64,000 bases of DNA from contig NZ_CAKLCM010000003.1 in NCBI RefSeq assembly GCF_921292975.1, forward strand, positions 1,240,001-1,304,000. The letters are read 5' to 3'. Under the pieces are notes generated by a model that was given only the letters and a program-made list of their open reading frames with translations, ran no database searches and was not told the origin of the DNA. The translations under genes were made by a program, and so were the position numbers. The DNA is from Vibrio hippocampi. Lineage in GTDB: Bacteria > Pseudomonadota > Gammaproteobacteria > Enterobacterales > Vibrionaceae. How positions within the stretch are numbered: the stretch's first letter is position 1; each line of letters opens with the position of its first letter. Positions 452 through 35,511 of the stretch are shown one piece after another.

Positions 452-460
452 GGGTACTTT

Positions 461-510
461 CCTTAATCTGCTTTAATCCGCTTTAATTCGCTTTAATTCG
501 CTTTAATCTG
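461..510. repeat. 10-bp tandem repeat, five copies, ureA-ureB spacer
   Basis: Five consecutive 10-base units of the form CTTTAATYYG (first copy CCTTAATCTG) fill 461-510 on the plus strand. On the minus strand the copy nearest ureB supplies its ribosome site (AAGG). Copy-number change would alter the ureA-ureB spacing in 10-bp steps without touching a reading frame. That effect is inferred. Confidence 0.9.
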
Positions 511-539
511 CTTAGGGTATTGATAATGCCGTTGACTGG

Positions 540-842: not shown

Positions 843-857
843 TTTTTATCCCACTAT

Positions 858-893
858 ATTTTTATTGCTACTGTGATTTTTATTGCTACTGTG
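858..893. repeat. 18-bp perfect tandem duplication, ureD-ureA spacer
   Basis: An 18-base unit (ATTTTTATTGCTACTGTG on the plus strand) occurs twice without mismatch at 858-875 and 876-893, directly upstream of ureA on the minus strand. The identity of the copies suggests a recent slippage event. Confidence 0.93.
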
Positions 894-914
894 GTGCATC
901 TACTGAGTCAGTCA

Positions 915-2521: not shown

Positions 2522-2522
2522 C

Positions 2523-3374
2523 TTATTCCCCTAAATAAACCTGTTTCACTTCCGGATGCGCTTGCACTTGGTCCATCGTACCTTCCGCTAAAACATGACC
2601 TTGGTGCAGCACGGTAACGTGACTGGCGATGGAGCGAACAAAGTCCATATCATGTTCCACGACCACCACAGAATGTTTACCCGCCAATGAATTGAGCAGC
2701 TCCGAAGTACGGTCCATCTCTTGGTGCGTCATACCGGCAACGGGTTCATCAACCAAAAGTAATTTAGGGTTTTGCATCAGTAGCATGCCTATTTCTAGCC
2801 ACTGCTTCTGACCATGAGAGAGATTACCCGCCGTTAAACGGGATAAATCTTTAAGGTGGATCAACTCAAGCACCGACTCCAATTTATCCAACTGTTCACC
2901 GGACATTTTGGCGGTATAGGTTCCCCATACCGAGCGCACACCGGACATCGCTAATTCCAAGTTTTGCCACACCGTCAAACATTCAATCACGGTCGGCTTT
3001 TGGAATTTACGCCCGATGCCCGCATTGGCAATTTCCGATTCATTCATATCCAGCAAGTTGATGTTCGAGCCTAACCAAACCTTGCCAGAATCTGGTTTGG
3101 TTTTTCCGGTAATGATATCCATCATGGTCGTCTTACCTGCGCCATTTGGCCCAATGATGCAGCGCAATTCCCCCTCTTTGATATAAAGGTTGAGATCATT
3201 AATCGCCTTGAAGCCATCGAAGCTCTTATTGACGCCTTCGACATAGAGTAAGACGTTATGGCGCGTATCAATTAAAGGATGATGTTCCGGTTTCAAGAAA
3301 GGAAACACCTGATCACGGCGGGTCAGTTCTTGTACCGAGCCTTTAAGTTGCTGAGCGCGATTCAGTACCGTCAT
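2523..3374 (-). CDS. urtD: Urea ABC transporter ATPase UrtD
   Basis: This is the LivG-like ATPase of the urea importer. The 283-residue product has about 40 extra N-terminal residues before the ABC domain, as is common in UrtD. Walker A is GPNGAGKTT near residue 95, the signature LSHGQKQWLEIGM lies near 185, and Walker B LLLVDEP follows. The start overlaps the urtC stop (ATGA at 3371-3374), indicating coupling. It pairs with UrtE on the UrtB/UrtC membrane core. Confidence 0.94.
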   Translation of the reverse strand: MTVLNRAQQLKGSVQELTRRDQVFPFLKPEHHPLIDTRHNVLLYVEGVNKSFDGFKAINDLNLYIKEGELRCIIGPNGAGKTTMMDIITGKTKPDSGKVWLGSNINLLDMNESEIANAGIGRKFQKPTVIECLTVWQNLELAMSGVRSVWGTYTAKMSGEQLDKLESVLELIHLKDLSRLTAGNLSHGQKQWLEIGMLLMQNPKLLLVDEPVAGMTHQEMDRTSELLNSLAGKHSVVVVEHDMDFVRSIASHVTVLHQGHVLAEGTMDQVQAHPEVKQVYLGE

Positions 3375-4537
3375 GCTGTGACCTCCTCTGTTTTGTCCTT
3401 GTCTTTGTTCGACACCGACCGCTTCACTTGAGCGACCTTATCATTGATAAAACCAATCAAGCCTTTCGGGAAATACATGGTCGAAAGCACAAACAATCCA
3501 CCGAGTGCAAACAACCACACTTCTGGGAATTCCACCGTAAACCAACTCTTGGCGTAATTGATCACCAAAGCGCCCACAATGGCACCAAATAACGTGGCAC
3601 GACCGCCAAGTGCGACCCAAACGACGACCTCAATCGAGTTCAGTGGTGCAAACTCTCCGGGGTTGATAATGCCTACTTGCGGCACATAAAGCGCACCAGC
3701 AATACCCGCAATCACCGCCGATAACACAAACACCCAAAGCTTGATGCCATCGACATCGTAGCCCATAAAGCGGGTTCTCGATTCGGTATCGCGAATCGCC
3801 ATCGCCACACGCCCCAAGCGACTGTTAATCACGCTACGGCAAACGATATAGCTGACAATCAGCGCCACACCCGTTGCAATAAACAGCGCTATCTTGGTGC
3901 TGTCTTGCTGCAAGCTAAACCCTAATATGTCCTTAAAGTCCGTCAATCCATTGTTGCCACCAAAGCCCATTTCATTGCGGAAAAACGCCAGCATCAAGGC
4001 ATAGGTTAACGCCTGAGTCATGATCGACAGATAGACACCAGAAACCCGCGATCGAAAAGCCAAGTAACCAAACACAAAAGCTAACGCGCCGGGTACTAAC
4101 ACCACCATTAAGCAGGCAAACCAAAACTGGTCAAAACCTTGCCAGAACCAAGGCAATTCTTGCCAGTTTAAGAACACCATAAAGTCAGGAAGAATGGGGT
4201 TACCATACACGCCTCGGTCACCGATCTGACGCATCAAATACATGCCCATGGCATAGCCACCCAGCGCAAAAAAAGCACCATGACCGAGACTTAAGATCCC
4301 TAAATAGCCCCAAACCAGATCAACTGCGAGCGCCAATAGCGCATAACTGAGGTACTTACCCATTAGAGAAATGGTAAAGGTCTCTACGTGTAATGGATGC
4401 CCAACTGGCAATAAGGTGTTTGCCATGGGAATAAAAATAATCGCCGCCAAAATGGTCAACACGGTAATTTGACCGCCTTTGTCACCACGCAACGCAGATA
4501 ACACGATGGATTTTGACTGCATACCTTGAGGTTGCAT
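3371..4537 (-). CDS. urtC: Urea ABC transporter permease UrtC
   Basis: This is the LivM-like membrane permease of the urea importer. The start at 4537 (MQPQGMQSK) is preferred over an upstream in-frame start at 4588 that would overlap urtB, because AAGGAG lies seven bases before it. The 388-residue protein has many hydrophobic segments and the EAA-like loop region around RxGRVAMAIRDTESR before WVFVLSAVIAGIAGALY. It is followed by urtD with a four-base overlap. Family and context agree. Confidence 0.93.
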   Translation of the reverse strand: MQPQGMQSKSIVLSALRGDKGGQITVLTILAAIIFIPMANTLLPVGHPLHVETFTISLMGKYLSYALLALAVDLVWGYLGILSLGHGAFFALGGYAMGMYLMRQIGDRGVYGNPILPDFMVFLNWQELPWFWQGFDQFWFACLMVVLVPGALAFVFGYLAFRSRVSGVYLSIMTQALTYALMLAFFRNEMGFGGNNGLTDFKDILGFSLQQDSTKIALFIATGVALIVSYIVCRSVINSRLGRVAMAIRDTESRTRFMGYDVDGIKLWVFVLSAVIAGIAGALYVPQVGIINPGEFAPLNSIEVVVWVALGGRATLFGAIVGALVINYAKSWFTVEFPEVWLFALGGLFVLSTMYFPKGLIGFINDKVAQVKRSVSNKDKDKTEEVTA

Positions 4538-4547
4538 ACTGCTCTCC

Positions 4548-6173
4548 TTAACCTTCCGCCGCTCGACCGCGTTGTGGGAATAGACCACGCGGGCGTTTTT
4601 GAATAAACAAGATGATAAACACCAGCACTAAGATTTTTGCCAATACGGCACCAGCCCAGGGCTCAAGGATCTTATTGAACAAGCCAAGGCTAAGCCCGGC
4701 AACCAAGGTTCCCCATAGGTTTCCAACGCCACCAAACACCACCACCATAAAGGAGTCGATAATATATGCCTGTCCCATATTCGGACCGACGTTGGTGAGC
4801 TGTGACAAAGCAACGCCAGCCACACCAGCCACACCCGAACCCAAACCAAAGGTCATGGCATCAACGCGTTCAGAACGAATGCCCATTGCACGCGCCATAC
4901 CGCGGTTTTGCGACACCGCGCGAACTTGAAGACCGAGTGGAGTTTTCTTGAGGATCATCACCAGTCCAACAAAGACTAAAATGCAGAATAGAATGATATA
5001 GAGACGGTTATAGGTCAGAGACAGCATTGGATTTAACTGCATGGCACCTGACATCCACTCCGGTGTACTCACCGAGCGATTTAATGGCGAGAAGATAGAG
5101 CGTACCGCTTGCTGGAGAATCAAGCTGATACCAAAGGTCGCCAATAAGGTCTCTAAAGGACGACCATAAAGGTGACGGATCACACTGCGTTCAATCACGA
5201 TCCCCACCAGACCCGATACCACAAACGCCATCGGAATAGACAATAGCAGGGCTGTCCCCGTAGAGTTTGGCAACAATTGCTGCATTACATAGGTAGTGTA
5301 AGCGCCGATCATAATGAGCTCACCGTGAGCCATATTGATGACACCCATCACACCAAAAGTAATCGCTAAGCCGATACCCGCTAACACTAACACCGAGCCA
5401 AGGCTCAAGCCGAAGAATACCGTTTCAACACCCGAGTAGAATTTTTGACTCTGCTGGTATTTCCCTAAGCCTTTCTCCGCTGCGGCTAACACCGCTTCAT
5501 TATCACTGCTCGACAACACCTTATTTAAGGTCTGTAGCACAACAGACTGTTTGTAATCGGATAAGATTTCAATGTCAGCTATTTGCTGCGATGCACTGCT
5601 GGCATTAAGCGCACCACTGACCGCTAATGCCAATGTGAGTGCGTTCTGTACATCCGAGTCAGTTTCTTGCTGCTGCTTCTCGTTCAAGCGTTCGATCACC
5701 GCCACGTCCGTTTGACCAATTAAGGCTTCCACGGCTGATAAACGTGTGGTTGGGTCAGCACTGTCCAGACCCAGTGCAGCAATCTCCAGACGGATCAGAC
5801 CGCGTAGTTTGTTATTGACTCTAACCTTTTTGAACAGGCGAGATTTCTCGATCGTCAACTCAGAGCTATCCCACGCATTCAATGCGCTTGGATCTTTTTT
5901 GATGTTACTGCTGATATAGAGGGCGCGATAATGCTCGCTTGACTTGTCGTTAAAATAAAACAGGTCACCTTCCAACCATGCCGTCAGAATGGGCTTCGCT
6001 GTTGTTGGAGGGTTTTGCTTTACTAGCCACTCAATCGCTTGCTGCTTTTGTGTGTTATTTTTGCCTAATAAGGCATCGGTAAAGCTCTGTATGTCAGTGA
6101 CACTGGCAGCTGCAAGCTTCGTGCTCAATATAAGGAACACGACTACTTTCAGAATAAATGTCATTATTTTCAT
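4548..6173 (-). CDS. urtB: Urea ABC transporter permease UrtB
   Basis: This is the LivH-like permease of the urea importer. The 541-residue protein begins with a signal-like segment (residues 1-23) and a long soluble, probably periplasmic region rich in Ala, Leu and Gln (about 25-245). The membrane domain follows (about 250-535). The extended N-terminus is typical of proteobacterial UrtB rather than a fusion artefact. The motif GVMGVINMAHGELIMIGAY marks the first transmembrane part. An AAGGA site lies eight bases before the ATG. The upstream spacer holds a repeat array and a terminator-like hairpin. Confidence 0.94.
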   Translation of the reverse strand: MKIMTFILKVVVFLILSTKLAAASVTDIQSFTDALLGKNNTQKQQAIEWLVKQNPPTTAKPILTAWLEGDLFYFNDKSSEHYRALYISSNIKKDPSALNAWDSSELTIEKSRLFKKVRVNNKLRGLIRLEIAALGLDSADPTTRLSAVEALIGQTDVAVIERLNEKQQQETDSDVQNALTLALAVSGALNASSASQQIADIEILSDYKQSVVLQTLNKVLSSSDNEAVLAAAEKGLGKYQQSQKFYSGVETVFFGLSLGSVLVLAGIGLAITFGVMGVINMAHGELIMIGAYTTYVMQQLLPNSTGTALLLSIPMAFVVSGLVGIVIERSVIRHLYGRPLETLLATFGISLILQQAVRSIFSPLNRSVSTPEWMSGAMQLNPMLSLTYNRLYIILFCILVFVGLVMILKKTPLGLQVRAVSQNRGMARAMGIRSERVDAMTFGLGSGVAGVAGVALSQLTNVGPNMGQAYIIDSFMVVVFGGVGNLWGTLVAGLSLGLFNKILEPWAGAVLAKILVLVFIILFIQKRPRGLFPQRGRAAEG

Positions 6174-6217
6174 GAATGTGTCCTTTTTGCTATCTGATTT
6201 TTCTATCTAACTTCCGT

Positions 6218-6329
6218 GAAACTATTTTGCTAAGAAACTATTTTGCTAGGAAACTATTCGTCTAGGAGCCTATGTAGCTAGGAAACTATGCAAATCGAAA
6301 ACTAGGCAAATAGAGTGCTATGCAGATAG
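6218..6329. repeat. 16-bp degenerate tandem repeat, seven copies, urtA-urtB spacer
   Basis: Seven consecutive 16-base units fill 6218-6329. The first is GAAACTATTTTGCTAA and later copies drift (for example GAAACTATTCGTCTAG and AGTGCTATGCAGATAG). Copies 1 and 2 differ by one base, while copies 4 to 7 are more diverged. The array lies between a terminator-like hairpin after urtA and the start of urtB, and no reading frame with a ribosome site spans it. Confidence 0.9.
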
Positions 6330-6337
6330 AAAATAAA

Positions 6338-6367
6338 AGTGCTTCTATCGAAAGCGATAGAAGCACT
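6338..6367 (-). terminator. Hairpin after urtA, likely attenuator
   Basis: A perfect 13-bp stem (6338-6350 with 6355-6367) has a four-base loop. On the minus strand it is followed by TTTTATTTTC. It lies 15 bases beyond the urtA stop. Partial termination here would give more binding protein than membrane components, a common arrangement in ABC importer operons. That effect is inferred. Confidence 0.8.
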
Positions 6368-6382
6368 AAAACTAGAAAGGGA

Positions 6383-7669
6383 TTACTGGGCGCTGCCAGA
6401 ACATTTGCTAGTCTCTACGTTAAACGCACCGCACGAGAACGGCTTAGCCCAGCTAGAGAACAGCTTGGCGGATTCTGGCAGGTAGTTTGACCAAGCATCA
6501 CCCGCCACTAAACCTGTGGTCTCCCAAACAATATCGAACTGACCATCGTCTTGGATTTCACCAATCAATACCGGTTTAGTAATGTGGTGGTTAGCTAGCA
6601 TGGTTGAATAACCGCCAGAAAGGTTAGGAACCGACACACCGATCAACGCATCTTGAACTTGCTCTGCGTCGGTCGTTCCAGCATTGGTTACAGCTTGTGC
6701 CCACATGTTAAAGCCAATGTAGTGCGCTTCCATTGGGTCATTGGTTACACGCTCTTCGCTCTTAATAAACTTCTGCCACGCTTCAACAAACTCGCTGTTT
6801 GCGTCAGTGTCGACACTCATAAAGTAGTTCCAAGCCGCAAGGTGACCAACAAGAGGCGACGTATCCATACCTGACAATTCTTCTTCACCGACAGAGAACG
6901 CGACAACTGGAATATCTTCAGAAGACATGCCTTGCGCACCAAGCTCTTTATAGAAAGGGACGTTTGCATCGCCGTTGATGGTTGAAACTACTGCGGTTTT
7001 CTTACCTGCGGAACCAAACTTCTTGATATCCGATACGATAGACTGCCAGTCAGAGTGACCAAAAGGGGTGTAATTGATCATGATATCTTCTTCAGCGACA
7101 CCCGCATCTTTCAGGTAGGACTCAAGAATTTTGTTGGTAGTACGTGGATAAACATAGTCCGTACCGGCAAGTACCCAACGCTCAACGCCCAGTTCATCCA
7201 TCAGGTAATCAACGGCAGGGATGGCTTGTTGGTTTGGCGCGGCACCCGTGTAGAATACGTTTTTCGACGATTCTTCACCTTCATACTGCACTGGGTAGAA
7301 CAGGATGCTGTCGAGCTCTTCAAAAACAGGCAACATGGATTTACGTGATACTGAAGTCCAGCCACCGAACACAACGTCAACTTTTTCCTTTTCGATCAGT
7401 TCACGTGCTTTCTCAGCAAATAGCGGCCAGTTTGAAGCAGGGTCAACCACAACGGCTTCTAATTTTTTGCCCAGCAAACCGCCTTTTTTGTTTTGCTCTT
7501 CCACCAGCATCAACACCGTATCTTTAAGAGTGGTTTCACTGATCGCCATCGTGCCCGATAGTGAGTGAAGAACACCCACCTTAATGGTTTCTTCTGCCAT
7601 TGCCATCGCTGGCACCATAGCAAGAGATAGTCCTGCTGCTGCTAGTTTTGTTTTGAACGTCATGTTCAT
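6383..7669 (-). CDS. urtA: Urea ABC transporter substrate-binding protein UrtA
   Basis: This is the periplasmic urea-binding protein. The 428-residue precursor has a Sec signal peptide ending near AMA at residues 23-25. The mature part shows the UrtA pattern IKVGVLHSLSGTMAISE (29-45), GGWTSVSRKSMLPVFE (100-115), YPVQYEGEE (124-132), GTDYVYPRTTNKI and NYTPFGHSDW. These are characteristic of the urea/amide binders within the branched-chain amino acid binding family. It is the first gene of the urt-ure locus, with a sigma-54-like promoter candidate upstream and a hairpin after the stop. Confidence 0.95.
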   Translation of the reverse strand: MNMTFKTKLAAAGLSLAMVPAMAMAEETIKVGVLHSLSGTMAISETTLKDTVLMLVEEQNKKGGLLGKKLEAVVVDPASNWPLFAEKARELIEKEKVDVVFGGWTSVSRKSMLPVFEELDSILFYPVQYEGEESSKNVFYTGAAPNQQAIPAVDYLMDELGVERWVLAGTDYVYPRTTNKILESYLKDAGVAEEDIMINYTPFGHSDWQSIVSDIKKFGSAGKKTAVVSTINGDANVPFYKELGAQGMSSEDIPVVAFSVGEEELSGMDTSPLVGHLAAWNYFMSVDTDANSEFVEAWQKFIKSEERVTNDPMEAHYIGFNMWAQAVTNAGTTDAEQVQDALIGVSVPNLSGGYSTMLANHHITKPVLIGEIQDDGQFDIVWETTGLVAGDAWSNYLPESAKLFSSWAKPFSCGAFNVETSKCSGSAQ

Positions 7670-14321: not shown

Positions 14322-15755
14322 TCAATTTTGCTCGCTGATGTCCCATGAGATACCAACATCATCGATAGTTTTCGGTTCAAAACCTTGCGATTGAACGGCG
14401 GCGATACGTTGGCACAAAAGCTGGAAATTATCGCCATCTAATCCATACTTTGTCGCACTTTGAGCCGACTCAAGACATGAGTGACTAACCGCTGCTTGCT
14501 TCATCCAATCTGAAGTCTTGGACAATTCCTCTGCCATTTCCTTCACGGACACACCTTGTTCTACAGGGTAGCCAAGCTGATCGTGATTAGTCATGTTTGC
14601 TTGCCAGAAGATGGTGTCATTATGATCACCATCAATCAGTTTGGCGTCATTGGCAGGGTTGAAAAACTGATTCGAGGAAAATAGCACCTGTTGCGGCAGT
14701 AGTTGGCGTTTTTTCTTGCCAATCCCCGCTGCGGTCGCAATATACGGACCACGGTTATTGTCGAGTCGATTGTCGGCAATCAGGATATTGTTGACCTGCG
14801 GATAGAGCGTTCTGCTCTTGCCGTTTTCTAGCGGCGTACCTGCCGATATCGAGATAACTCCTTCTGCACGACCGCCTAAATCAGAAAACGCATTGGCAAA
14901 TACGAGATGATCTTTACCAATGACTCGCACGCCACCCGTGCCCTTTTTCTTATCACCAAGAAAATGGTTATAAGCAACCGCAACACGCTTGCCTTGTCGG
15001 ATAGTCAGTGTGCCAGCACTCTGTCTGAAAGTATTAAAGAGGTAGAGGTTGTCATTAGACTTATTGGAAATGATCTCCATTTCGCCATCACATCCCTCAA
15101 ATAAGTTATGAGCCACTAACACATTTGGATTAAGGTGCGAGCTTTTTCCAGTGCCGATGCGGATCGTTTCAAACCCGTTCGCTTTACCATAGGCGCGTGG
15201 ACCAAAGTAATTGTGAGAGATGGTGTGATGCCCATCCTGCTCAGACTTAAGCCAAACCACCGTCGTTACCCCTGAATGAGTTTGCCCTGAAAAATGGTTG
15301 TGTTGCACGGTATGGTCACGACCGTATAAGCTCAGCCAATGATAGCGAGTCTCTTTAGATGTGGGGTTATAGTTGGTGATGGCATTGTCATACACCTTGT
15401 TATAGGCACCGGAAACACGAATAACATGCCCTTTTTGTAGCGACCCTTGATCAAAATGAAGCCCAGACAAATGCAAATAGCTGCCGGCAATTTCAAGATA
15501 ACTATCACCAGTGAGCTTGGTTGAACCCGCCCGCTCTGAACGAATTACTATCGGCTTATCCTCGCTACCGTTGGCATTGAGTATAATATGCTGGTCGTGC
15601 CAAGTGCCTGACTTGAGAATTAGCTCATCACCGGGTTTAAGTTTTCCAGCAACACTGCGTATTTCTGATGCAGAAGCGACCTGATACTCAGTCGCACTGA
15701 CCATAGGAACAGCCAGCAAAGCCACCAATGGCGTAATAAAAGTTATAAGATTCAC
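14322..15755 (-). CDS. PL6 family polysaccharide lyase (alginate lyase or chondroitinase B type)
   Basis: This is a secreted parallel beta-helix lyase of family PL6, 477 residues, with a signal peptide ending at VSA (about 18-21). The calcium and catalytic pattern of chondroitinase B is intact with exact spacing: E225, E227, K232 in DGEMEIISNK and R253 in TLTIRQ, 21 residues after the Lys. Such enzymes cleave alginate or dermatan sulfate by beta-elimination. Alginate is the more likely substrate in a marine bacterium, but sequence reading cannot decide. The start is a GTG. No other alginate genes adjoin it; the neighbouring PTS is of another type. Confidence 0.85.
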   Translation of the reverse strand: MNLITFITPLVALLAVPMVSATEYQVASASEIRSVAGKLKPGDELILKSGTWHDQHIILNANGSEDKPIVIRSERAGSTKLTGDSYLEIAGSYLHLSGLHFDQGSLQKGHVIRVSGAYNKVYDNAITNYNPTSKETRYHWLSLYGRDHTVQHNHFSGQTHSGVTTVVWLKSEQDGHHTISHNYFGPRAYGKANGFETIRIGTGKSSHLNPNVLVAHNLFEGCDGEMEIISNKSNDNLYLFNTFRQSAGTLTIRQGKRVAVAYNHFLGDKKKGTGGVRVIGKDHLVFANAFSDLGGRAEGVISISAGTPLENGKSRTLYPQVNNILIADNRLDNNRGPYIATAAGIGKKKRQLLPQQVLFSSNQFFNPANDAKLIDGDHNDTIFWQANMTNHDQLGYPVEQGVSVKEMAEELSKTSDWMKQAAVSHSCLESAQSATKYGLDGDNFQLLCQRIAAVQSQGFEPKTIDDVGISWDISEQN

Positions 15756-16342
15756 GATAAGCTAGTCCATGATAGTTAAACCGATTGCCAGAGTGATGCA
15801 AACATTGTCCCCACACCTGTTAACAGACGTTTTTTAAAAGTAAAAGCACGTCATAGCACCAGTTTATAAGAAGCCTATTTGACTCAAGCAGAATAAAGCA
15901 TAACCTCGTTTGTTCATCTGCTGAAATAATATTTATTATAAAACATCTAAAGTAAGAAATAGATCATCAAGGGGATAAAATTAACTCAAATGTTACCAAT
16001 GCCGTTACCTATCCAAGTCGTCACGCAACAACGTCTTGCCCGTATATCAATTATTGTTAATCGTTATTAATTAGTTAACAACTCGACAATAAATGAAACT
16101 TTTCGTCATCTTTATTATAGTTCAACTATAATTAGTTAATTTGTAGTATTAATTTTCTACTTTGGCACAACCCACAACTTTTTGAAAGCAAAGCTCATAA
16201 TATACATTAAATCAAACCATCCATTAAATAATGGACATTGAAACGGCATCAAGTTGGGATTTGACTTTTTTTTCATCACACATTAAGTGTAAATTAAATG
16301 TCAGGACACTAATTAGCGATAATTCAATGAGGGTTGTGTGTG
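15756..16342. other. AT-rich spacer with palindrome upstream of PTS operon
   Basis: No credible coding sequence is seen. A perfect palindrome ATTATAGTT-C-AACTATAAT lies at 16114-16132, and a short direct repeat ATTAGTTAA flanks it (about 16067 and 16131). These could be operators for the PTS operon, whose regulator is not in the window. TTGACT near 16260 could be a -35 element, but no good -10 follows at the right distance. Confidence 0.5.
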
Positions 16343-26950: not shown

Positions 26951-27829
26951 CTAGTTAACGTCATAGAGTGTTCGATTGCGATGCATAAACTTTGGCCATA
27001 CTTTTCCTAAACTGGCTCCCAAAATGATTGTGAACAAAGCAATCAAGTGTAACGAAGAGAGTGTGACCGAATTAAATGCAACCGCCAACAGCATCATAGA
27101 TAGCAATGGCGTGAGGTAAGTCAACGAGCCAATAAACCTTGGGTCACCGTGGCGCATCGCATAATCCCAACTGTAAAAACTCAAGCCCATAGGCCCTAAG
27201 CCTAACAACAGTAATGACACCCAATCACTTAATTGAATTGGCGGGATCTGATCCATTGTCATCACAAATACCCCAAGTGACAACAATCCGGACATCAAGC
27301 AAATAGCCGCAACCGCCGAGCTAGACATCCTATCGTTGTGGCAATTAGTTAACGTATAATGCGCCCATAAAAGCGCTGCACATAACGCTTCGAGGTAACC
27401 TAGCCAATGCTCGCTACTTATCTCAGATTGTTGATTGTTCATCACCATTAAAATAGCAACGAAGGAGAGCCCTGCCCCCAAAACATGGCCAACATTCAAT
27501 TTTTGACCACCAAACAAAGGGGTCCCCAACACGATAAACAGTGGCCAAAGATACTGAATCATATTCACTTCTATCGCTGGGGCTCGGCTAAATGCATCAA
27601 ACAGCAGATAGTGGTAGCCAAACATACCGATGATCGCTTTAAGCCAATCTTTGATAGGCAAACGCCATGTTCGATAATGCTTTAACCCCGGAATCGAGGC
27701 GATGATGAGCACGATACCCACAGTACATAGGGGCGGCAAGTGATTCACTGAAAGCGTCAATGCCGCTAAAGATGACCACATGACAATGGTTAACAAAGCG
27801 GCAAACAGTCCAAGATAGCGCTTCATCAT
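26951..27829 (-). CDS. DMT superfamily permease (EamA)
   Basis: This is a 292-residue protein with ten hydrophobic segments in two EamA repeats. Its start overlaps the creatinase stop (ATGATGA at 27824-27829), so the two are translationally coupled. EamA proteins mostly export amino acids or metabolites. Here it may export or exchange a product or analogue of creatine metabolism such as sarcosine, which is inferred from context only. Confidence 0.85.
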   Translation of the reverse strand: MMKRYLGLFAALLTIVMWSSLAALTLSVNHLPPLCTVGIVLIIASIPGLKHYRTWRLPIKDWLKAIIGMFGYHYLLFDAFSRAPAIEVNMIQYLWPLFIVLGTPLFGGQKLNVGHVLGAGLSFVAILMVMNNQQSEISSEHWLGYLEALCAALLWAHYTLTNCHNDRMSSSAVAAICLMSGLLSLGVFVMTMDQIPPIQLSDWVSLLLLGLGPMGLSFYSWDYAMRHGDPRFIGSLTYLTPLLSMMLLAVAFNSVTLSSLHLIALFTIILGASLGKVWPKFMHRNRTLYDVN

Positions 27830-29028
27830 GCGCCAACAATGTTGTGTTCAGGACCAAATTTAAAGCCTGTGATATTTTCGCTACCTTGTTCATTGACAAC
27901 CAAAATATCATGCTCTCTATAACCTCCCGCTCCCGTTAAGTGATCAGGAATCATCAGCATCGGCTCCATAGACACCACCATCCCCGGCTGCAAAACGGTC
28001 TCTATGTCTTCTCTTAGTTCCAGTCCAGCTTCGCGTCCATAGTAGTGACTCAAGACACCAAACGAGTGACCATAGCCAAAGGTTCTATAATCAAGCAACC
28101 CATAACCACGATAGATTTCATTTAATTCGGCGGCAATATCGCAACACTTTGCGCCCGGCTTGATAAGCTCAAGACCTTTTCGATGCACTTCGCAATTTAT
28201 TTGCCATATTTTCAGTTGCTCATCATCGCAGTGATTCAAGAAAAGGGTACGTTCCAGAGCGGTGTAGTAACCCGCTATCATAGGAAAGCAATTTAGACTC
28301 AAAATATCACCCGACTGCAAGCGACGAGTAGTGAGCGGATTGTGTGCCCCATCGGTATTAATCCCAGACTGAAACCAAGTCCACGTATCTCGTAACTCAA
28401 TGTGGGGAAACGTCTCGGCAATTGCGCGCGTCATGGCGTTATTGGCTGCAATCGCTACTTCGAATTCTGGCACATTTTCTTTAATCGCTTTGACACAAGC
28501 GGCTCCACCGATATCCGCGATGCGAGCGCCATGTTTGATCAGTTCGATTTCTTCCGAACTCTTAACCATTCTCTTTGTCATCACATCGCCACTGATATCG
28601 TAAAAGCGGGCTTGTGGGTAGAGATCTGCGAATTTTTGCTTCGCCATCAAGGTCAAGTGATCGGCTTCTATCGCGACGGTTTTTGGGTTAGGCAACACAT
28701 TTTTGATCGCTCGATAATAATTATCTTGTTTCCAATCGGTGTATACCAAATTGTCTCCAATACTACGGCGATACGGTTGACCCGCATCGATATTGGCTGA
28801 AATTGTCACCGAGCGGTCTTGAGTGACAACGAGCGCATAAGGGCGCCCAAAAGAAGTGTATAAAAAGTCACTGTAGTAATTGATGTTTTGAATGGAGGTA
28901 AAAACCACCGCATCCAATTGTTTCTCTGCCAATAGCTCACGCAAGGTCGCGAGCCTTGTTAACATCTCCAAAGAAGAAAAAGTCCCTTTGACCTTTTCAC
29001 CGTTTCTGATTTCCAATATATCTTGCAT
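27826..29028 (-). CDS. Creatinase (creatine amidinohydrolase)
   Basis: The enzyme hydrolyses creatine to sarcosine and urea. It is a non-metal member of the M24 pita-bread fold. The product is 400 residues from the ATG at 29028; the longer frame to 29163 adds 45 residues unlike the family. Blocks closely resembling Pseudomonas creatinase, as I recall it, are NINYYSDFLYTSFGRPYALV (48-67), TWTWFQSGINTDGAHNP (215-231; His229 is the expected catalytic base), LSLNCFPMIAGYYTALERTL (244-263) and RTFGYGHSFGVLSHYYGREA. It is followed by a coupled DMT permease and preceded by a LysR gene on the same strand. Confidence 0.9.
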   Translation of the reverse strand: MQDILEIRNGEKVKGTFSSLEMLTRLATLRELLAEKQLDAVVFTSIQNINYYSDFLYTSFGRPYALVVTQDRSVTISANIDAGQPYRRSIGDNLVYTDWKQDNYYRAIKNVLPNPKTVAIEADHLTLMAKQKFADLYPQARFYDISGDVMTKRMVKSSEEIELIKHGARIADIGGAACVKAIKENVPEFEVAIAANNAMTRAIAETFPHIELRDTWTWFQSGINTDGAHNPLTTRRLQSGDILSLNCFPMIAGYYTALERTLFLNHCDDEQLKIWQINCEVHRKGLELIKPGAKCCDIAAELNEIYRGYGLLDYRTFGYGHSFGVLSHYYGREAGLELREDIETVLQPGMVVSMEPMLMIPDHLTGAGGYREHDILVVNEQGSENITGFKFGPEHNIVGA

Positions 29029-29113
29029 GACATCTGTCCCTTTACTGATTTGCACGGTAATTATCTTGTTGTAATTGCCGTATAGGGACAAACAATGAAT
29101 CGTAATGCCGGTA

Positions 29114-30055
29114 TTATCTGTGCTTATGTGAAAGCATGGAATCCACGCTATAGCGCGTTTCAAACTCTTTCGCTTGCTGTCGCATCCAATGGGAAAAACG
29201 TTGAATCTGTGGTCGACTGGTTAACTTTTTCAAACAAACCAAGTAAACACCATCATCTTCAAGCGCATGACCAAATAGTGGCACGAGTTTCCCTGCGGCC
29301 ACATCTCGAGCCACCAAACTATGGCGCCCCAATGCCACCCCTTGCCCATCAATCGCCGCTTGAACAATCAAGTCCGCCTGATTGAAACTATAACCCGCAT
29401 TGCAATCCACTCGACTTACACCAAGATCACTAAACCAGCGCTGCCAAGAGGTGGACAGTTTCGCTTGCGGTAAAGAGTCATGAAGAAGCACCGTTTTTCT
29501 TAGATCTTCCGGTGTTCTCAAGGGCAATTTGGCGAGCAGGCTTGGACTGGCAACCGGGTAAATGTAATCACGAAATAATAGGGTTTGTTCCATTGCAGGT
29601 TGATCCCCGACACCATGACATATACCGATATCGACATCTTCGTTACGAAAGTTTGGCTCAGAAAAACTGGCTGAGATAAGCAGATCAATCTTAGGGTTAT
29701 TTTGATAAAAGCTGCTTAAACACGGCATCAACCAGCGGCTGGCAAACGACGGCATACAGTAGACTTCTAACCGTGTCATCTGCTCTTTTGAGTCAATATC
29801 GCTTAATGTGTCACGAATTTGCAACAGCGCTAATTGCACAGACTGATACAAGTGCTCGCCATTAATGGTCAACGTTAACTGTCTTGGCTTGCGTTCGAAC
29901 AACTTAAAGTTCAAACGTTGCTCTAGCTGAATTACTTTTTGACTCACGGCACTTTGCGAAACGCAAAGCTCTTGCGCAGCGAGAGTAAAACTCAAATGTC
30001 TCGCCGCCGCTTCAAAATAGCGCAGGGCTTCTAGGGGTGGGAGTCTTAATGCCAC
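29114..30055 (-). CDS. LysR family regulator (GcvA-like)
   Basis: This is a LysR-type activator of about 313 residues. The winged HTH occupies roughly residues 5-60 (LPPLEALRYFEAAARHLSFT...LCVSQSAVSQKV), followed by a LysR substrate-binding domain. A GTG start at 30055 is preferred because GGAGG lies five bases before it; an ATG at 30067 has no ribosome site. It sits between the creatinase gene and the divergent guanidino-type ABC/ureohydrolase operon, so it probably controls one or both in response to a guanidino compound. Coinducer unknown. Confidence 0.88.
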   Translation of the reverse strand: MALRLPPLEALRYFEAAARHLSFTLAAQELCVSQSAVSQKVIQLEQRLNFKLFERKPRQLTLTINGEHLYQSVQLALLQIRDTLSDIDSKEQMTRLEVYCMPSFASRWLMPCLSSFYQNNPKIDLLISASFSEPNFRNEDVDIGICHGVGDQPAMEQTLLFRDYIYPVASPSLLAKLPLRTPEDLRKTVLLHDSLPQAKLSTSWQRWFSDLGVSRVDCNAGYSFNQADLIVQAAIDGQGVALGRHSLVARDVAAGKLVPLFGHALEDDGVYLVCLKKLTSRPQIQRFSHWMRQQAKEFETRYSVDSMLSHKHR

Positions 30056-30067
30056 ATTGACCTCCAT

Positions 30068-30482
30068 GTCAACTTGTCAACCAAGCAAACTTCTTAACGA
30101 CTCAGACATAGTGCGGTCAATTTTCATCACCTTATCAGTAACGAAACGGTCGCCTTATATCCATACTAATAATAATGTTTATAGCCGCTATCCTTTGCAG
30201 AATATATGCCACTATTCACAACGATTCATAACCACCATCTAACAACGTTCTGCCCTATCACTCACTTTGTCAGCGTAGTCTTCATCGAATCAGAACTCTC
30301 AACTCAAAACGTCATAGCCAAACAGCCACGCACAAATATGTGGCATTTTAAGCCACACTTTCTCCCCAAGCTGGTGCATAACGCCTTCTTATGTATACAG
30401 ATTAGCAATCACCGTTTGTCGGCGACCTTGCAATTGAATCAATATAGATGACAACTACCTATCATCATAACGAGGGATCGAG
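30068..30482. promoter_or_regulatory. Divergent control region of guanidino island
   Basis: This non-coding spacer lies between the LysR gene and the ABC operon. A palindrome TGTGGC-N7-GCCACA lies at 30339-30357, about 125 bases before the substrate-binding protein start, and is a candidate LysR operator. No ykkC-type guanidine riboswitch pattern was recognised. A GAGGGAT ribosome site precedes 30483. Confidence 0.5.
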
Positions 30483-31334
30483 ATGAAAGTTCAATTACCA
30501 AGTAAAACACTACTATTGGCCACCACACTGCTTAGTTCACTATTCACTGGCGCTGCTCATGCTGACCTTCTCTCGGAGATCAAAGCAAAGGGCGAGATTA
30601 CCATTGCTACTGAAGCTCGCTACGCACCCTTTGAAATGTTGCAAGACGGTAAGATCGTCGGTTACGGCAAAGATGTTCTTGATGAAATCCTTAAAGATCT
30701 ACCGGGTGTCAAACTGAAACAGCTGGACTTGCCTTTCCAAGGTATTTTGGCTGGACTAAACGCAAACCGATACGACTTTGTCGCCACATCTCTGACGATT
30801 ACCAAAGATCGAGCGGCTAATTATTCTTTCACATACCCCATCTCAACAGCTTCCGTTGCTATGCTGAAACGCAAAGGGGATGACCGTATTCAGAGTCCAG
30901 AAGATATGGCAGGTATGGTACTGGGCACTCAAGCGGGTTCCGCTCAGCTAAGTGTGATTAAAACTTTTGAACAAGAGGTATTAACGCCAAAAGGCGACAA
31001 GTACAAATCTATCAAAGAGTTTACCGACTACAACGAAGCTTATGCCGCACTTGCATCTCGTCGCGTCGATGTGGTTCCACAAGCGATTCCAAATCTTGCA
31101 CCGATTATCAAAGAGCGCCCAGACATGTTTGAAATCGTGCAACCTCCTTTTGGTCCAGCAACGTACTACGGCTGGGTAGGCAGAAAAGATGCTGACTCAG
31201 CAACACTTGTCCAGTTCATGAGTGACGGGATAGAAAAGCTTCACAAAAGCGGTAAGTTAGCCGAACTGCAGCAAAAATGGTTTGGTTTCACGATGGACGT
31301 ACCAACAGGTATGGTTCCACAGCCTATTCACTAA
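30483..31334 (+). CDS. ABC transporter substrate-binding protein, polar amino acid type
   Basis: This periplasmic binder of the SBP_bac_3 family has 283 residues with a signal peptide ending AAHA (about 27). Mature motifs are GEITIATEARYAPFEM (36-51), FVATSLTITKDRAANYSFT and VLGTQAGSAQ. The family binds arginine, ornithine, lysine, opines and similar ligands. Two ureohydrolases follow before the permease genes, so the ligand is probably a guanidino compound (arginine, agmatine, guanidinobutyrate, guanidinopropionate or creatine). A hairpin after the stop may raise its level relative to downstream genes. Confidence 0.87.
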   Translation: MKVQLPSKTLLLATTLLSSLFTGAAHADLLSEIKAKGEITIATEARYAPFEMLQDGKIVGYGKDVLDEILKDLPGVKLKQLDLPFQGILAGLNANRYDFVATSLTITKDRAANYSFTYPISTASVAMLKRKGDDRIQSPEDMAGMVLGTQAGSAQLSVIKTFEQEVLTPKGDKYKSIKEFTDYNEAYAALASRRVDVVPQAIPNLAPIIKERPDMFEIVQPPFGPATYYGWVGRKDADSATLVQFMSDGIEKLHKSGKLAELQQKWFGFTMDVPTGMVPQPIH

Positions 31335-31351
31335 TTCTTTAAACATCCGCG

Positions 31352-31379
31352 CTAGCCTCCAAGGAATCAAGGAGGCTAG
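31352..31379 (+). terminator. Intra-operon hairpin after binding-protein gene
   Basis: CTAGCCTCC (31352-31360) pairs with GGAGGCTAG (31371-31379). No T run follows, so it is more likely an mRNA stabiliser or attenuator than a full terminator. Confidence 0.55.
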
Positions 31380-31409
31380 TTATATCCGCATTGATCATCC
31401 GAGGCTTAG

Positions 31410-32384
31410 ATGGAACCTAACGCTTGTACTAAACCAAAACTCAACCTACCGTTTGTCGGATTTTGTACCTTTGCTAAAAGTCCGATTGTTGAACAAGGCA
31501 GTGCCTATCAAGCCGACTTCGCGGTCATTGGTGCGCCTTTCGATATGGGATGCCAGTATCGTTCCGGCGCGCGCTTTGGTCCTAGAGCCATTCGTCAAGC
31601 ATCTACCCTATTCTCTTTTGGTCATCACGGAGCTTATGACCACGAACTCGATACACTATTTTTGGCCAAGGACAAAGTAAATATTGTCGATGTCGGTGAC
31701 GTCGATATGGTGCATACCGACACTTCCACCTGCCTGAATAACATTCAAGATGAAGTCAAAGCCATTCTGTCAAATAAAGCCATTCCGGTGGTACTGGGTG
31801 GCGACCATGCTATTACAGCCGCCGTTCTGGCAGCTTATGACGGACATAAACCCATACATATTGTCCAAATTGACGCTCATCTAGATTTTGTCGATGAACG
31901 GCACGGGGTTCGCTACGGTCATGGAAACTGCATGCGCAGAGCCTCAGAGATGCCACATGTCTCGGGTCTAACGCAACTTGGCATTCGTAATGTTTCATCA
32001 TCGAGTCAGTCTGACTATGTGGACGCCAGAAACGCTGGTTCCAACATTTTATCAGTACGCCAGTTCCGTCAATCGAGTATCGAGGATATCTTGGCGACGA
32101 TTCCCAAAGGGGAAGCTTGCTATATCACTATCGACATTGATGGCTTCGACCCCTCCATTGCTCCCGGAACAGGTACCCCGAGCCACGGTGGGTTTCAATA
32201 TTACGAGGTACTGGAATTTCTTCGTCAAGTTTGCCAACACACCGAGGTTGTGGGTATTGATCTTTGCGAAGTTTCACCACCTTACGATCCGGCAGAGGTC
32301 ACAGCGACCCTCGCGGCTCAACTGTTGATGAACCTGATTGGTTATGTATCACACTATGCGTCCCAAGGAGAGTCTCATGTCTAA
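31410..32384 (+). CDS. Ureohydrolase family protein 1 (agmatinase-like)
   Basis: This 324-residue member of the arginase/agmatinase superfamily would cleave a guanidino group to urea at a binuclear Mn (or Ni) site. All metal ligands are present: H133 in GGDH, D155/H157/D159 in DAHLD, and D242/D244 in DIDGFDP. The loop GHGNCMRRASE differs from the classic agmatinase HGTxF loop, so the substrate may not be agmatine. It precedes a second, different ureohydrolase with an eight-base overlap, inside an ABC importer operon. Confidence 0.9.
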   Translation: MEPNACTKPKLNLPFVGFCTFAKSPIVEQGSAYQADFAVIGAPFDMGCQYRSGARFGPRAIRQASTLFSFGHHGAYDHELDTLFLAKDKVNIVDVGDVDMVHTDTSTCLNNIQDEVKAILSNKAIPVVLGGDHAITAAVLAAYDGHKPIHIVQIDAHLDFVDERHGVRYGHGNCMRRASEMPHVSGLTQLGIRNVSSSSQSDYVDARNAGSNILSVRQFRQSSIEDILATIPKGEACYITIDIDGFDPSIAPGTGTPSHGGFQYYEVLEFLRQVCQHTEVVGIDLCEVSPPYDPAEVTATLAAQLLMNLIGYVSHYASQGESHV

Positions 32385-33339
32385 TCCAAACCAAACGCTG
32401 CCAAGATATAGTGGTATCGCAACATTTATGCGTTGCGACTATGTCCCCGAGCTTCAAGATGTCGATATTGCTCTAGTCGGAGTACCGTTTGACGGGGGTG
32501 TGACCAACCGAACAGGCACTCGACATGGTCCTCGTGAGATCCGTAACCAGTCCAGTTTAATGCGCATCATCAATCAAGCAACTGGGGTCGCTCCTTTTGA
32601 ACTGTGTCGAGTTGCGGATGTAGGTGATGTACTTCCCGACTCGCCTTTTGAGTTAGTCAAAGCTCACCAGTCGATAGAGTTATTTTTTAAGCAAATCAAA
32701 GCCTCAGGTGCACTGCCTATCGCAGCCGGAGGTGACCACTCGATTTCATTGCCCATTTTAAGGGCTTTAGCGCAAGACGGACCGGTAGCCCTCATCCATT
32801 TTGATGCTCATTGTGACACAGGCGACAATTACTTCGGGTCCAAGTTTCATCATGGTTCACCATTTAAAATCGCGGTAGAAGAGAACCTGATTGATCCGAA
32901 AAGAACCATTCAAATCGGTATCAGAGGCTCACTAAATGATAAAGATATGTGGCGCTTTAGCCATGAGACCGGTATGCGTGTTCTCTATATGGATGAATGC
33001 GTTGAGCTCGGTGTCGAAGGGATACTGCAACAGATAAAACAGACCATTGGCGATACGCCTGCTTACGTTACCTTTGATGTGGACTGTCTCGATCCCGCCT
33101 TTGCTCCGGGCACAGGAACACCTGAGATGGGAGGCTTCACCTCCATCGAAGCACTGCAATTAATCCGTGGTCTTCAAGACGTCAACGTTATTGGCGCGGA
33201 TGTGGTTGAAGTGTCTCCACCTTTTGATCCAACAGGGAACACCGCGCTTGTAGGGGCGACGATCATGTTCGAGTTGCTCTGTATCGCGGCTCAATCACGG
33301 CAGCGAAATGCTGTTGCTAAGGAGACCTGCCATGTTTGA
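32377..33339 (+). CDS. Ureohydrolase family protein 2 (guanidinobutyrase/propionase-like)
   Basis: This is a 320-residue ureohydrolase starting at ATG 32377 behind AAGGAG; an upstream in-frame start would extend it into gene 1. Ligands are H121 in AGGDH, D143/H145/D147 in DAHCD, and D234/D236 in DVDCLDP. The segments KFHHGSPFKIAVEENLIDP and TIQIGIRGSLND recall 3-guanidinopropionase and 4-guanidinobutyrase of Pseudomonas. It is clearly a paralogue of, but diverged from, the preceding protein. It overlaps both neighbours by eight bases, giving tight coupling. Confidence 0.9.
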   Translation: MSNPNQTLPRYSGIATFMRCDYVPELQDVDIALVGVPFDGGVTNRTGTRHGPREIRNQSSLMRIINQATGVAPFELCRVADVGDVLPDSPFELVKAHQSIELFFKQIKASGALPIAAGGDHSISLPILRALAQDGPVALIHFDAHCDTGDNYFGSKFHHGSPFKIAVEENLIDPKRTIQIGIRGSLNDKDMWRFSHETGMRVLYMDECVELGVEGILQQIKQTIGDTPAYVTFDVDCLDPAFAPGTGTPEMGGFTSIEALQLIRGLQDVNVIGADVVEVSPPFDPTGNTALVGATIMFELLCIAAQSRQRNAVAKETCHV

Positions 33340-33982
33340 TTTCTCTGTTGTTTGGAGCGCGATACCTTCATTATTGACGGGGCTGTGGACCACGGCGTGG
33401 ATCTCACTGATTTCTATCATAATAGGCTTTGGCTTGGGCGCTCTAATCTGTTTAGGGCGCATGTCTAGCACCACGGCAATCCGAACCTGTTGCCAGATCT
33501 ACATCAGTGCCTTAAGAGGGACGCCGTTGTTGGTTCAGTTAGTCATCGTTTTCTATTTTTTACCTCTGGCTGGTATCAATATTCCCTCAATTTTGACCGC
33601 AATTATTGTTTTGTCGATGAACACCGCCGCGTTTCAATCAGAGATACTAAGAGGTGGTTTTCTCTCTTTGCCTGCCGGTCAAAAAGAGGCGGCTTGGACG
33701 TTTGGTTTTTCTCCAGTACAGAGGCTGGTTCGCATTGAACTGCCCCAAGTATTCCGTAAAACCTTACCTTCCTTGGTGAATGAAACCATAGATATCATCA
33801 AAAACTCAGCACTGATTTCAACCATCGCGGTGACTGATTTAATGCGATTGGCACAAACCTATTCGTCAACCTCATACCGACCGATTGAGTTTTTCGTCAC
33901 TGCAGGTCTGCTCTATCTCGTCCTTACTTCATGTATCGGGCTATTGGGGCGCTATATCGAATCAAAGCTCGCCACCAGCTAG
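33332..33982 (+). CDS. ABC transporter permease 1, polar amino acid type
   Basis: This is a 216-residue HisM/GlnP-type permease with about five transmembrane segments. The ATG at 33332 has AAGGAG upstream and overlaps the ureohydrolase 2 stop by eight bases. The EAA loop reads LPAGQKEAAWTFGFSPVQ near 114-131, and RGTPLLVQLVIVFYFLP is the usual second segment. It probably forms a heterodimer with the next permease and uses the ATPase at 34684. Confidence 0.9.
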   Translation: MFDFSVVWSAIPSLLTGLWTTAWISLISIIIGFGLGALICLGRMSSTTAIRTCCQIYISALRGTPLLVQLVIVFYFLPLAGINIPSILTAIIVLSMNTAAFQSEILRGGFLSLPAGQKEAAWTFGFSPVQRLVRIELPQVFRKTLPSLVNETIDIIKNSALISTIAVTDLMRLAQTYSSTSYRPIEFFVTAGLLYLVLTSCIGLLGRYIESKLATS

Positions 33983-33992
33983 AGGAACCGTC

Positions 33993-34646
33993 ATGGATTT
34001 CACACTTTATTTCACCTACGCTCCACTACTTGCAAAAGGGCTGGCTTATACCGTATTTGTTTGCTCAATTGGTCTTCTGATCAGCCTATTTGCTGGGTTA
34101 GCACTCTATGGAGTGAGTCAAGTTGCCTGGTTACCACTGCGCATCTTTTACCGCGGCTATCTATTGATTTTCAGAGGCACACCATTGCTGGTGCAGGTCT
34201 ATCTGGTATTTTACGGTGGGCCATTTGTTGGTATCGAATTAAGCGCTGAGCAGGTCGGTATCCTTGGGTTAGGGATGTACGGCGCTGCCTACTTTGCCGA
34301 GATCTTTCGTTCTGGCTTTGCCAGTATTCCCAAGGGGCAAGTTGAGGCCAGTTATGACCTTGGCTTTTCGCGCTGGCAGACCTTAACACGTGTACAAATT
34401 CCTCAAATGCTCGGGTTAATCATTCCACCTAGCATTAACCAAAGCATCATTTTAATTAAAGAGTCGGCGATTTTGTCGATTATCACTGTACCTGAGATAA
34501 CCAAAGCCGTTGTCACGATGGCGACTCAAACCTTCACCGTTGTGGAGCCATACCTATTTTTGGCCGTAGCCTATTGGTGCATTACCTCAGCACTAGCAAG
34601 GTTCGGGGCGTGGAGTGAAAAGCGCGCGCGACATTACCTCAATTAA
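33993..34646 (+). CDS. ABC transporter permease 2, polar amino acid type
   Basis: This is a 217-residue permease of the same family as its upstream neighbour, with RGTPLLVQVYLVFYGGP and the EAA loop IPKGQVEASYDLGFSRWQ. The start at 33993 follows AGAGGAA; an earlier in-frame start lies within permease 1. It is the second half of the membrane channel of the guanidino-type importer. Confidence 0.9.
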   Translation: MDFTLYFTYAPLLAKGLAYTVFVCSIGLLISLFAGLALYGVSQVAWLPLRIFYRGYLLIFRGTPLLVQVYLVFYGGPFVGIELSAEQVGILGLGMYGAAYFAEIFRSGFASIPKGQVEASYDLGFSRWQTLTRVQIPQMLGLIIPPSINQSIILIKESAILSIITVPEITKAVVTMATQTFTVVEPYLFLAVAYWCITSALARFGAWSEKRARHYLN

Positions 34647-34683
34647 CGTTGGCCTAAGCCGCTAGATAAAAAAGGATTTTTCT

Positions 34684-35511
34684 ATGAAAACACAACATAA
34701 AGCCATCAAATTGGTGCAGTTAAATAAAAGTTTTGGTGACAACCATGTATTAAAGGGCATCGATCTCACCATAGAAACCGGCGAAGTAGTCTGTATTATT
34801 GGCGGCTCAGGTTCGGGAAAAAGCACCATGTTGCGTTGCATGAATTTTCTTGAACATTATGACAGTGGCGAAGTACTGATAAACGGCAGAATGATTGGCT
34901 ATGGTGCCGATACACAAGGTAATTTTCAGAAGCTTCCAGAACACATTGCCCAACGCGACCTCACCGATGTCTGCATGGTGTTCCAACAGTTCAACTTGTG
35001 GCCACATATGACGGTACTGGAAAACGTCATGGCACCTTTGGTCTACGTTAAGAAACTCAGCAAGCAGCAGGCTAAGGACAAAGCCCAACAGGTGTTAGAA
35101 AAAGTAGATATGGCTCATAAAGCAGACGCTTACCCAAATCAACTCTCGGGTGGTCAACAGCAGCGAGTCGCGATTGCTCGTTCCTTGGGCACAGAGCCAA
35201 AGATCATGCTATTTGATGAACCAACCTCAGCCCTTGACCCTGAATTGGTTGGCGAAGTATTGAAAGTGATGAAATCTCTAGCAGAAGAAGGGATGACTAT
35301 GGTCATCGTCACCCATGAAATGGGTTTCGCTGCCCAAGTCTCCGACAAAGTGGTCTTTTTATCTCAGGGGCAAATTGCAGAACAAGGGTCACCTAATAAG
35401 CTATTTTTGTCACCACAAACCTCACAGCTTAAAAGCTTTCTGGCGACATGGAGTGAGAGAAATAGTGGCTTAGGGATGGCCCAAAGCCGTTCTTTAGTGG
35501 ATGTTGCCTAA
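34684..35511 (+). CDS. ABC transporter ATPase, polar amino acid type
   Basis: This 275-residue GlnQ/HisP-type ATPase has Walker [10 protein letters not shown] near residue 40, the Q-loop [12 protein letters not shown], signature [14 protein letters not shown] and Walker [15 protein letters not shown]. An insert near residues 75-100 before the Q-loop resembles the longer loop of HisP/ArtP-like subunits. It is the last gene of the operon, with a terminator 27 bases after the stop. Confidence 0.92.

Follow-up and report, generated by a model that had tools for sequence, protein, structure and literature searches.

Gene organization of the locus

We analysed a 64,000-nucleotide stretch of DNA from Vibrio hippocampi, called the window below, which covers positions 1240001-1304000 of one contig in a genome of 4.59 Mb and 5 contigs. 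Within the window, a creatinase gene and the gene of a DMT-family permease lie coupled on the minus strand, and a divergent operon encodes an ABC importer together with two ureohydrolases, UH1 and UH2 (Table 1). The gene of a LysR-family regulator stands between the two transcripts. We propose, with a probability of about 0.6, that this locus is a nitrogen-scavenging module which imports and cleaves guanidino acids and from which sarcosine is exported.

Table 1. Genes and candidate elements of the proposed guanidino-acid locus in the window
Feature	Position	Strand	Basis
EamA/DMT-family permease (YddG-like)	26951..27829	-	PF00892; YddG model 202.7 bits, under cut-off 300
Creatinase	27826..29028	-	Top PDB match 1chm, 619.6 bits
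LysR-family regulator, GcvA subfamily	29114..30067	-	NF008352 303.5 bits, cut-off 288 passed
Candidate conserved regulator site	30399..30420	+	Begins 84 bp before binding-protein start
Periplasmic binding protein, SBP_bac_3	30483..31334	+	Arg110 kept; Ala201 at alpha-amino aspartate site
9-bp stem hairpin / inverted repeat between binding-protein gene and UH1	31352..31379	+	Spotted by eye
UH1, ureohydrolase	31410..32384	+	PF00491; Arg164 at recognition position
UH2, 3-guanidinopropionase-like ureohydrolase (predicted)	32377..33339	+	Top PDB match 3nip (GpuA), 386.9 bits
ABC permease 1 (BPD_transp_1)	33332..33982	+	PF00528
ABC permease 2 (BPD_transp_1)	33993..34646	+	PF00528
ABC ATPase, HisP/GlnQ type	34684..35511	+	PF00005; HisP model 306.3 bits, under cut-off 466

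The first-pass annotation of this DNA had described a creatinase coupled to a DMT permease, a LysR regulator and a divergent importer operon, and we found that the frames are open at its coordinates and belong to the families it named. It had also placed two ureohydrolases between the binding-protein and permease genes, which is the case. Since a ureohydrolase occupies the same spot, between the binding-protein gene and the first permease gene, in other genomes too, this interleaving is not due to chance. From the three eight-base overlaps that had been reported, two remain, both on the plus strand (UH1/UH2, 32377-32384; UH2/permease, 33332-33339), while the third is a 4-bp ATGA overlap of the creatinase stop with the DMT start on the minus strand. 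The range given for the island, 27826..35511, left out the DMT gene.

Recurrence of the importer and exchange of the enzymes

UH1 and the creatinase (each at E<=1e-60) were detected in the same four of 296 Vibrionaceae genomes, and the two genes lie at most 3 kb apart in all four. In samples of 295 genomes from the order and 369 from the class, the binding protein (E<=1e-70) was found in 9 and 2, respectively, and one of the latter two is the source genome. The distribution of the proposed guanidino-acid module is patchy.

We read the module loci as 19.5-kb stretches, plus one short contig of a metagenome-assembled genome (MAG), L006. Twelve loci have a common LysR/importer core, with binding proteins at least 72% identical. 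All three enzymes are encoded in the window, L090 and L091, creatinase and UH1 in L092 and L113, creatinase only in L114 and L115, and UH2 only in L109-L112. L006, whose contig stops past the second permease, carries UH1 and UH2, and an M24 fragment of 34% identity lies at the end of its contig. The importer operon of L113 has the LysR-creatinase-DMT genes at its opposite end. Two more loci have binding proteins of 45-51% identity: L117 also encodes a relative of UH2 (56%) not far away, and in L116 neither creatinase nor UH1 nor UH2 was matched. Since the twelve loci combine one importer with differing enzymes, the importer is the constant part and the urea-releasing enzyme is exchanged. The comparison of gene order thus fits the import-and-cleave reading.

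By inspection, transposase-like genes were found around the L092 module, and one adjoins the DMT gene in L090. Such neighbours fit horizontal movement of the module. In L092 they are located at 3787-6672 and 14907-15929, flanking the creatinase and UH1 module on both sides.

Creatinase

The window creatinase is homologous to 1chm over its full length, with 264 of 396 aligned residues identical (66.7%). The histidine of the GAHNP region is important in creatinase, and in the alignment this region is the same as in 1chm. This strong homology suggests that the enzyme converts creatine to sarcosine and urea. Known creatinases (EC 3.5.3.3; 1chm, 7yto, 1kp0) are full-length homologues of the window enzyme, which differs from them in its neighbours, an ABC importer and a DMT permease, and in that its genome gave no SoxA-like GCV_T match.

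Bacteria in seawater reportedly use creatine, a finding ascribed to Wawrik et al. in 2017. Creatine breakdown by marine bacteria and sponge microbiomes has been discussed (PMC11366302, PMC6742649). In Corynebacterium glutamicum ATCC 14067, creatine serves as a nitrogen source via dedicated genes (PMC8864220), a use of creatine that we propose for the window module too. The C. glutamicum set consists of creT, crnA, cshA and hyuB under AmtR; a ureohydrolase and a LysR-controlled ABC importer do not appear in the excerpted text of that article (PMC8864220).

Binding protein and its predicted ligands

In amino-acid binding proteins, an aspartate grips the alpha-amino group of the ligand and an arginine grips its carboxylate. 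We aligned 37 binding-protein rows, some of which represent one protein from two sources. The carboxylate arginine (Arg110 in the window protein) is kept in 37/37 rows, whereas the column of the alpha-amino aspartate holds Ala, Ser or Thr in 37/37, with Ala201 in the window protein. Judged by eye from alignments, this column is Asp in AncQR, 6svf/4prs and ArtJ, and it is acidic in both domains of 6h30. As a control, the genome's own Art-type binding protein also has Asp at this column. The window protein therefore has the carboxylate arginine in common with the binding proteins of polar amino acid ABC importers and differs from them in lacking the aspartate for the alpha-amino group.

Because the arginine is kept and the aspartate is gone, a ligand with a carboxylate and without an alpha-amino group is expected, and creatine, guanidinoacetate and 3-guanidinopropionate fit this description. 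Creatine, beta-guanidinopropionate and guanidinoacetate are among the ligands of the human creatine transporter (PMC7148354), so a single site for all three guanidino acids is plausible. The proposal of a dedicated guanidino-compound import-and-cleave module, already made in the first-pass annotation, gains support from these residues and from the comparative genomics.

UH2 resembles 3-guanidinopropionase

The six metal-binding His/Asp columns are identical in all 92 ureohydrolase rows, UH1 and UH2 included. Among PDB structures, UH2 matched GpuA of Pseudomonas aeruginosa (3nip) best, at 386.9 bits, ahead of GbuA (313) and E. coli agmatinase 7lol (217.8), and 168 of 307 residues (54.7%) are identical to GpuA. 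The P. aeruginosa GpuA locus is under LysR control. GbuA M161 and GpuA Y157 participate in substrate recognition, according to a paper on yeast guanidinobutyrase (PMC10833137). A tyrosine stands at the GpuA Y157 position in 5/5 UH2 rows, that of the window among them. GpuA is thus the closest known enzyme and has the recognition tyrosine in common with UH2; unlike GpuA, UH2 is embedded in an ABC importer operon next to UH1 and a creatinase. We predict that UH2 is 3-guanidinopropionase-like, converting 3-guanidinopropionate to beta-alanine and urea.

UH1 belongs to a distinct ureohydrolase family

At the same recognition position UH1 has Arg164, and arginine is found there in 85/85 UH1 rows in place of the methionine (position 161) of guanidinobutyrase. 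The 85 rows did not cluster with SpeB: they form a clade apart from the genome's two SpeB-like rows, and the loop differs. The NCBIfam agmatinase equivalog cut-off of 174.3 bits is exceeded by UH1 (201.7) as well as UH2 (202.8); since both pass, it cannot separate them. UH1 has the fold and metal ligands of agmatinase 1wog, the guanidinases 9fek and 7esr, and SpeB, and it differs from them in its arginine at the recognition position and in its low identity, which does not exceed 32% to any solved protein among the 50 listed matches of the fold search; 1wog comes closest in both sequence and fold. For the fold search alone, we used a structure model of UH1 that has a mean pLDDT of 70.3 and values below 50 at recognition-loop residues 161-172. 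These comparisons place UH1 in a distinct ureohydrolase family, for which no solved member was found here. Where its relatives have names, agmatinase is the usual label; the 120 best matches listed, from at least 8000 candidates not all of which belong to this family, have 61-98% identity. In the tree, the UH1 proteins of importer modules, including that of L006 (Marinobacterium), form one group with support 100/99.

We counted neighbouring genes around the best 80 of 565 confirmed UH1 loci (matches E<=1e-20 within 6.5 kb). Aldehyde dehydrogenase was found near UH1 in 26/80 loci, a BetA-type oxidoreductase in 23/80, an NCS1 permease in 23/80, and all three together in 22/80. TRAP binding proteins (6/80) and creatinase (2/80, one being a 34% fragment) were also counted. 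One BetA representative clears the choline dehydrogenase cut-off (762.7 versus 732.1 bits). This alcohol-aldehyde-acid series fits a route from guanidinoethanol through guanidinoacetate to glycine and urea, without proving it. The conserved group of UH1, aldehyde dehydrogenase, NCS1 permease and BetA-type oxidoreductase (L008:8875-15989 and alike) mostly has a divergent LysR gene, and it occurs in Pseudomonas, Paraburkholderia, Caballeronia, Citrobacter and Serratia, among others. Guanidinoacetate is the compound nearest to creatine.

We know of no sequence assigned to guanidinoacetase (EC 3.5.3.2), and among the titles listed from the open-licence literature no bacterial gene for this hydrolase was found. 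We tentatively name guanidinoacetate as the substrate of UH1, a choice for which the odds fall short of even.

Fate of urea and sarcosine

A urease alpha gene is present in 11/11 module genomes, and the copy of the source genome lies just left of the window. In three module genomes (G153, G143 and G245) the urease gene is on another contig than the module, so their closeness in the source genome is not conserved. By inspection, the minus-strand frames at 116-7669, which reach the left edge of the window, read as ureB, ureA, ureD and the urtABCDE genes of an ABC importer for urea.

A long SoxA-like GCV_T protein was found in 0/7 genomes that combine creatinase, ABC importer and DMT permease; they gave GcvT-like or weak matches only, and the sole match in G898 was weak. 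In the genomes with UH2 only, the long GCV_T protein has 1011 aa in G733 and 817 aa in G750 and G815, and is missing in G791. The MSOX model reached its cut-off (479.65) in 0/11 module genomes and also in 0/14 control genomes, so this search has no positive control.

The creatinase search of the order returned 9/295 genomes, four of which (G000, G732, G802 and G898) belong to the seven with creatinase and importer. The other five, from one genus, have the creatinase near an SSS-type symporter (by inspection), and 5/5 encode a GCV_T protein 1014-1026 aa long; the GCV_T search was the one applied to them. No DMT homologue was found in the 19.5 kb around the creatinase in these five stretches (0/5). 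In contrast, the DMT permease is present in 7/7 modules with creatinase and ABC importer versus 0/4 modules with UH2 only. Because the DMT permease alternates with the SoxA-like protein among 12 creatinase genomes, we suggest that it exports sarcosine where sarcosine cannot be oxidised, a proposal held with moderate confidence since few lineages are involved. Export, perhaps of sarcosine, is a likelier role for the permease than a part in import.

Candidate regulator site and other features

The candidate regulator site consists of GATTAGnAATC leading into ACCGTTTGT. Within 2 mismatches, its 13-mer occurs in 7/13 upstream regions, at 79-107 bp, whereas 1000 shuffles gave 0.41 on average and never more than 4. 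This comparison is partly circular, since three of these regions supplied the motif and, among the seven with a match, two are nearly the same. ACCGTTTGT is present in 6/11 upstream regions. L006 and the loci with creatinase only carry the site with 4 mismatches, at 73-85 bp and followed by ACCGTTTGT, and no good match to the site was found upstream in L113. The partly shared site suggests that one regulator is common to all modules.

The hairpin between the binding-protein and UH1 genes possibly lifts the binding-protein mRNA above that of the rest of the operon. An Rfam search of the window gave zero matches, and the promoter and terminator scans performed no better than chance. Elsewhere in the window, a minus-strand frame at 14322-15755 resembles, by inspection, polysaccharide lyases such as chondroitinase B and alginate lyase.

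Alternative explanations

The locus could instead encode an ordinary importer of the arginine/agmatine type with two agmatinases, the creatinase being a neighbour by chance. The agmatinase cut-off passed by both ureohydrolases would agree with this, as would the top NCBIfam model of the binding protein, lysine/arginine/ornithine (111.6 bits, below its cut-off of 256.35), and one UH1 relative inside a polyamine-type importer operon (L064). Yet the source genome has two further full ureohydrolases elsewhere, read as SpeB and placed in a separate clade, one of them beside a SpeA-like gene, and the binding protein lacks the alpha-amino aspartate. A chance neighbour is also at odds with the close spacing of creatinase and UH1 in 4/4 Vibrionaceae and with two other modules in which creatinase is the sole urea-releasing enzyme found. 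We regard this explanation as very unlikely; a housekeeping agmatinase was discarded in view of the two SpeB-like enzymes. In total, five PF00491 matches are listed for the source genome, one of them weak (E 3.2e-4). The second SpeB-like ureohydrolase is located on the contig of the window (L093, 318000-332000), close to an ABC importer of the Art type, and the binding protein of that importer has retained the alpha-amino aspartate. A divergent arginase-family frame, the weak PF00491 match, lies between this ureohydrolase and the importer.

It is highly improbable that UH1 and UH2 form one heteromeric enzyme with a single substrate, as in nickel metformin hydrolase. Metformin hydrolase is heteromeric (PMC11271267), and its two ureohydrolase subunits (8snf, 8ryi) recall the adjacent, overlapping UH1 and UH2 genes, which belong to the same superfamily. 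PDB searches with both proteins do return its chains, but with far lower scores, at 72.4 versus 183.1 bits for the top match of UH1 and 105.8 versus 386.9 for that of UH2. Unlike the metformin hydrolase subunits, UH1 and UH2 occur apart: under the same importer, UH2 is alone in 4 loci and UH1 is found without UH2 in 2. All six metal ligands are present in each of them. A heteromeric ureohydrolase was discarded since UH1 and UH2 each occur singly.

The substrates of the ureohydrolases might also be guanidino compounds from marine animals, sulfonated ones such as taurocyamine or others, with Arg164 of UH1 holding the sulfonate. A variant of the human guanidino acid hydrolase works best on taurocyamine, and a model places an arginine of the neighbouring subunit near the sulfonate (PMC9772407). 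Linkage to creatinase and to a GpuA-type UH2 favours carboxylates instead, and we consider sulfonated substrates unlikely. A greater chance, not far below even, attaches to the idea that the DMT permease is a second importer, or an exporter of an unrelated compound, while sarcosine is used by an unrecognised enzyme. EamA proteins have varied substrates, and the searches for sarcosine enzymes covered GCV_T and the MSOX model only; the presence of the DMT gene in 7/7 creatinase and ABC modules, alternating with the SoxA-like protein, speaks for sarcosine export.

Several observations weigh against the import-and-cleave module proposed here, or against parts of it. A second control binding protein (L111, 2165-2965) is also without Asp at the alpha-amino column, in an alignment that is shifted. 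The creatinase-only loci have the regulator site in its 4-mismatch form. UH1 relatives elsewhere adjoin other transporters, including the polyamine-type ABC importer of L064, and guanidinoacetate is not indicated there. We searched 44 UH1-bearing genomes for the binding protein and found a 73% match in 1 (the genome of L006), matches of 43-44% in 3 and none in 40, so UH1 is not tied to an importer of the window type. Urease is found in 145/296 Vibrionaceae, and its presence in 4/4 module Vibrionaceae is therefore weak evidence, though consistent with the module; this background undercuts urease linkage as proof of the module's role. G153 has an MSOX-type match of 106 bits, under the cut-off, in the search without a positive control. 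Finally, the DMT/SoxA contrast compares 7 genomes in 3 genera with 5 genomes in 1 genus, and the SoxA label was assigned from two traits, a match to GCV_T and a frame length near 1000 aa. In L064:3531-12263, from a Rhizobiales MAG, a 63% creatinase, the polyamine-type importer, UH1 and an amine-oxidase-like gene are adjacent.

Proposed mechanism and significance

For the import-and-cleave module, the sequences themselves show which genes are present, that they recur and co-occur, which residues stand at the key sites, that the amino-group aspartate is missing and that no SoxA-like GCV_T match exists in the source genome. We infer from them the inducer, the regulator site, the role of the DMT permease and every ligand and substrate, with strong homology behind creatine for the creatinase. 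The LysR regulator would sense a guanidino acid and, at the site some 84 bp upstream of the binding-protein start, would switch on the importer. Together, binding protein and importer would then bring in short guanidino carboxylates, namely creatine, 3-guanidinopropionate and probably guanidinoacetate. Creatinase would cleave the imported creatine into sarcosine and urea, UH2 would cleave 3-guanidinopropionate into beta-alanine and urea, and the likeliest reaction for UH1 would be the cleavage of guanidinoacetate into glycine and urea. The urease encoded in the genome would convert urea to ammonia. The DMT permease coupled to creatinase probably exports sarcosine, in keeping with the finding of no SoxA-type sarcosine oxidase.

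In the open-licence literature, as far as titles and the starts of abstracts go, a module of creatinase, ureohydrolase and importer was not found described. The comparison gives good support to a dedicated module for import and cleavage of guanidino compounds, which would be a novel variation on the known catabolism of creatine and guanidino acids. A bolder proposal, which we hold to be rather unlikely, is that UH1, marked by its arginine at the position of GbuA M161 and GpuA Y157, founds the missing family of bacterial guanidinoacetate hydrolases, that sarcosine export by the DMT permease replaces sarcosine oxidase, and that a single importer of the creatine type supplies three interchangeable enzymes that release urea. 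On this proposal, bacteria with the module would take only the urea nitrogen from creatine, and the methylated remainder would pass to their neighbours.

If the import-and-cleave reading is true, the genes of the module could serve as a marker of the uptake of creatine and its guanidino-acid relatives, and a large family of ureohydrolases, usually annotated as agmatinases, would gain a substrate. The module would also represent a testable partial catabolism in which sarcosine is shed.

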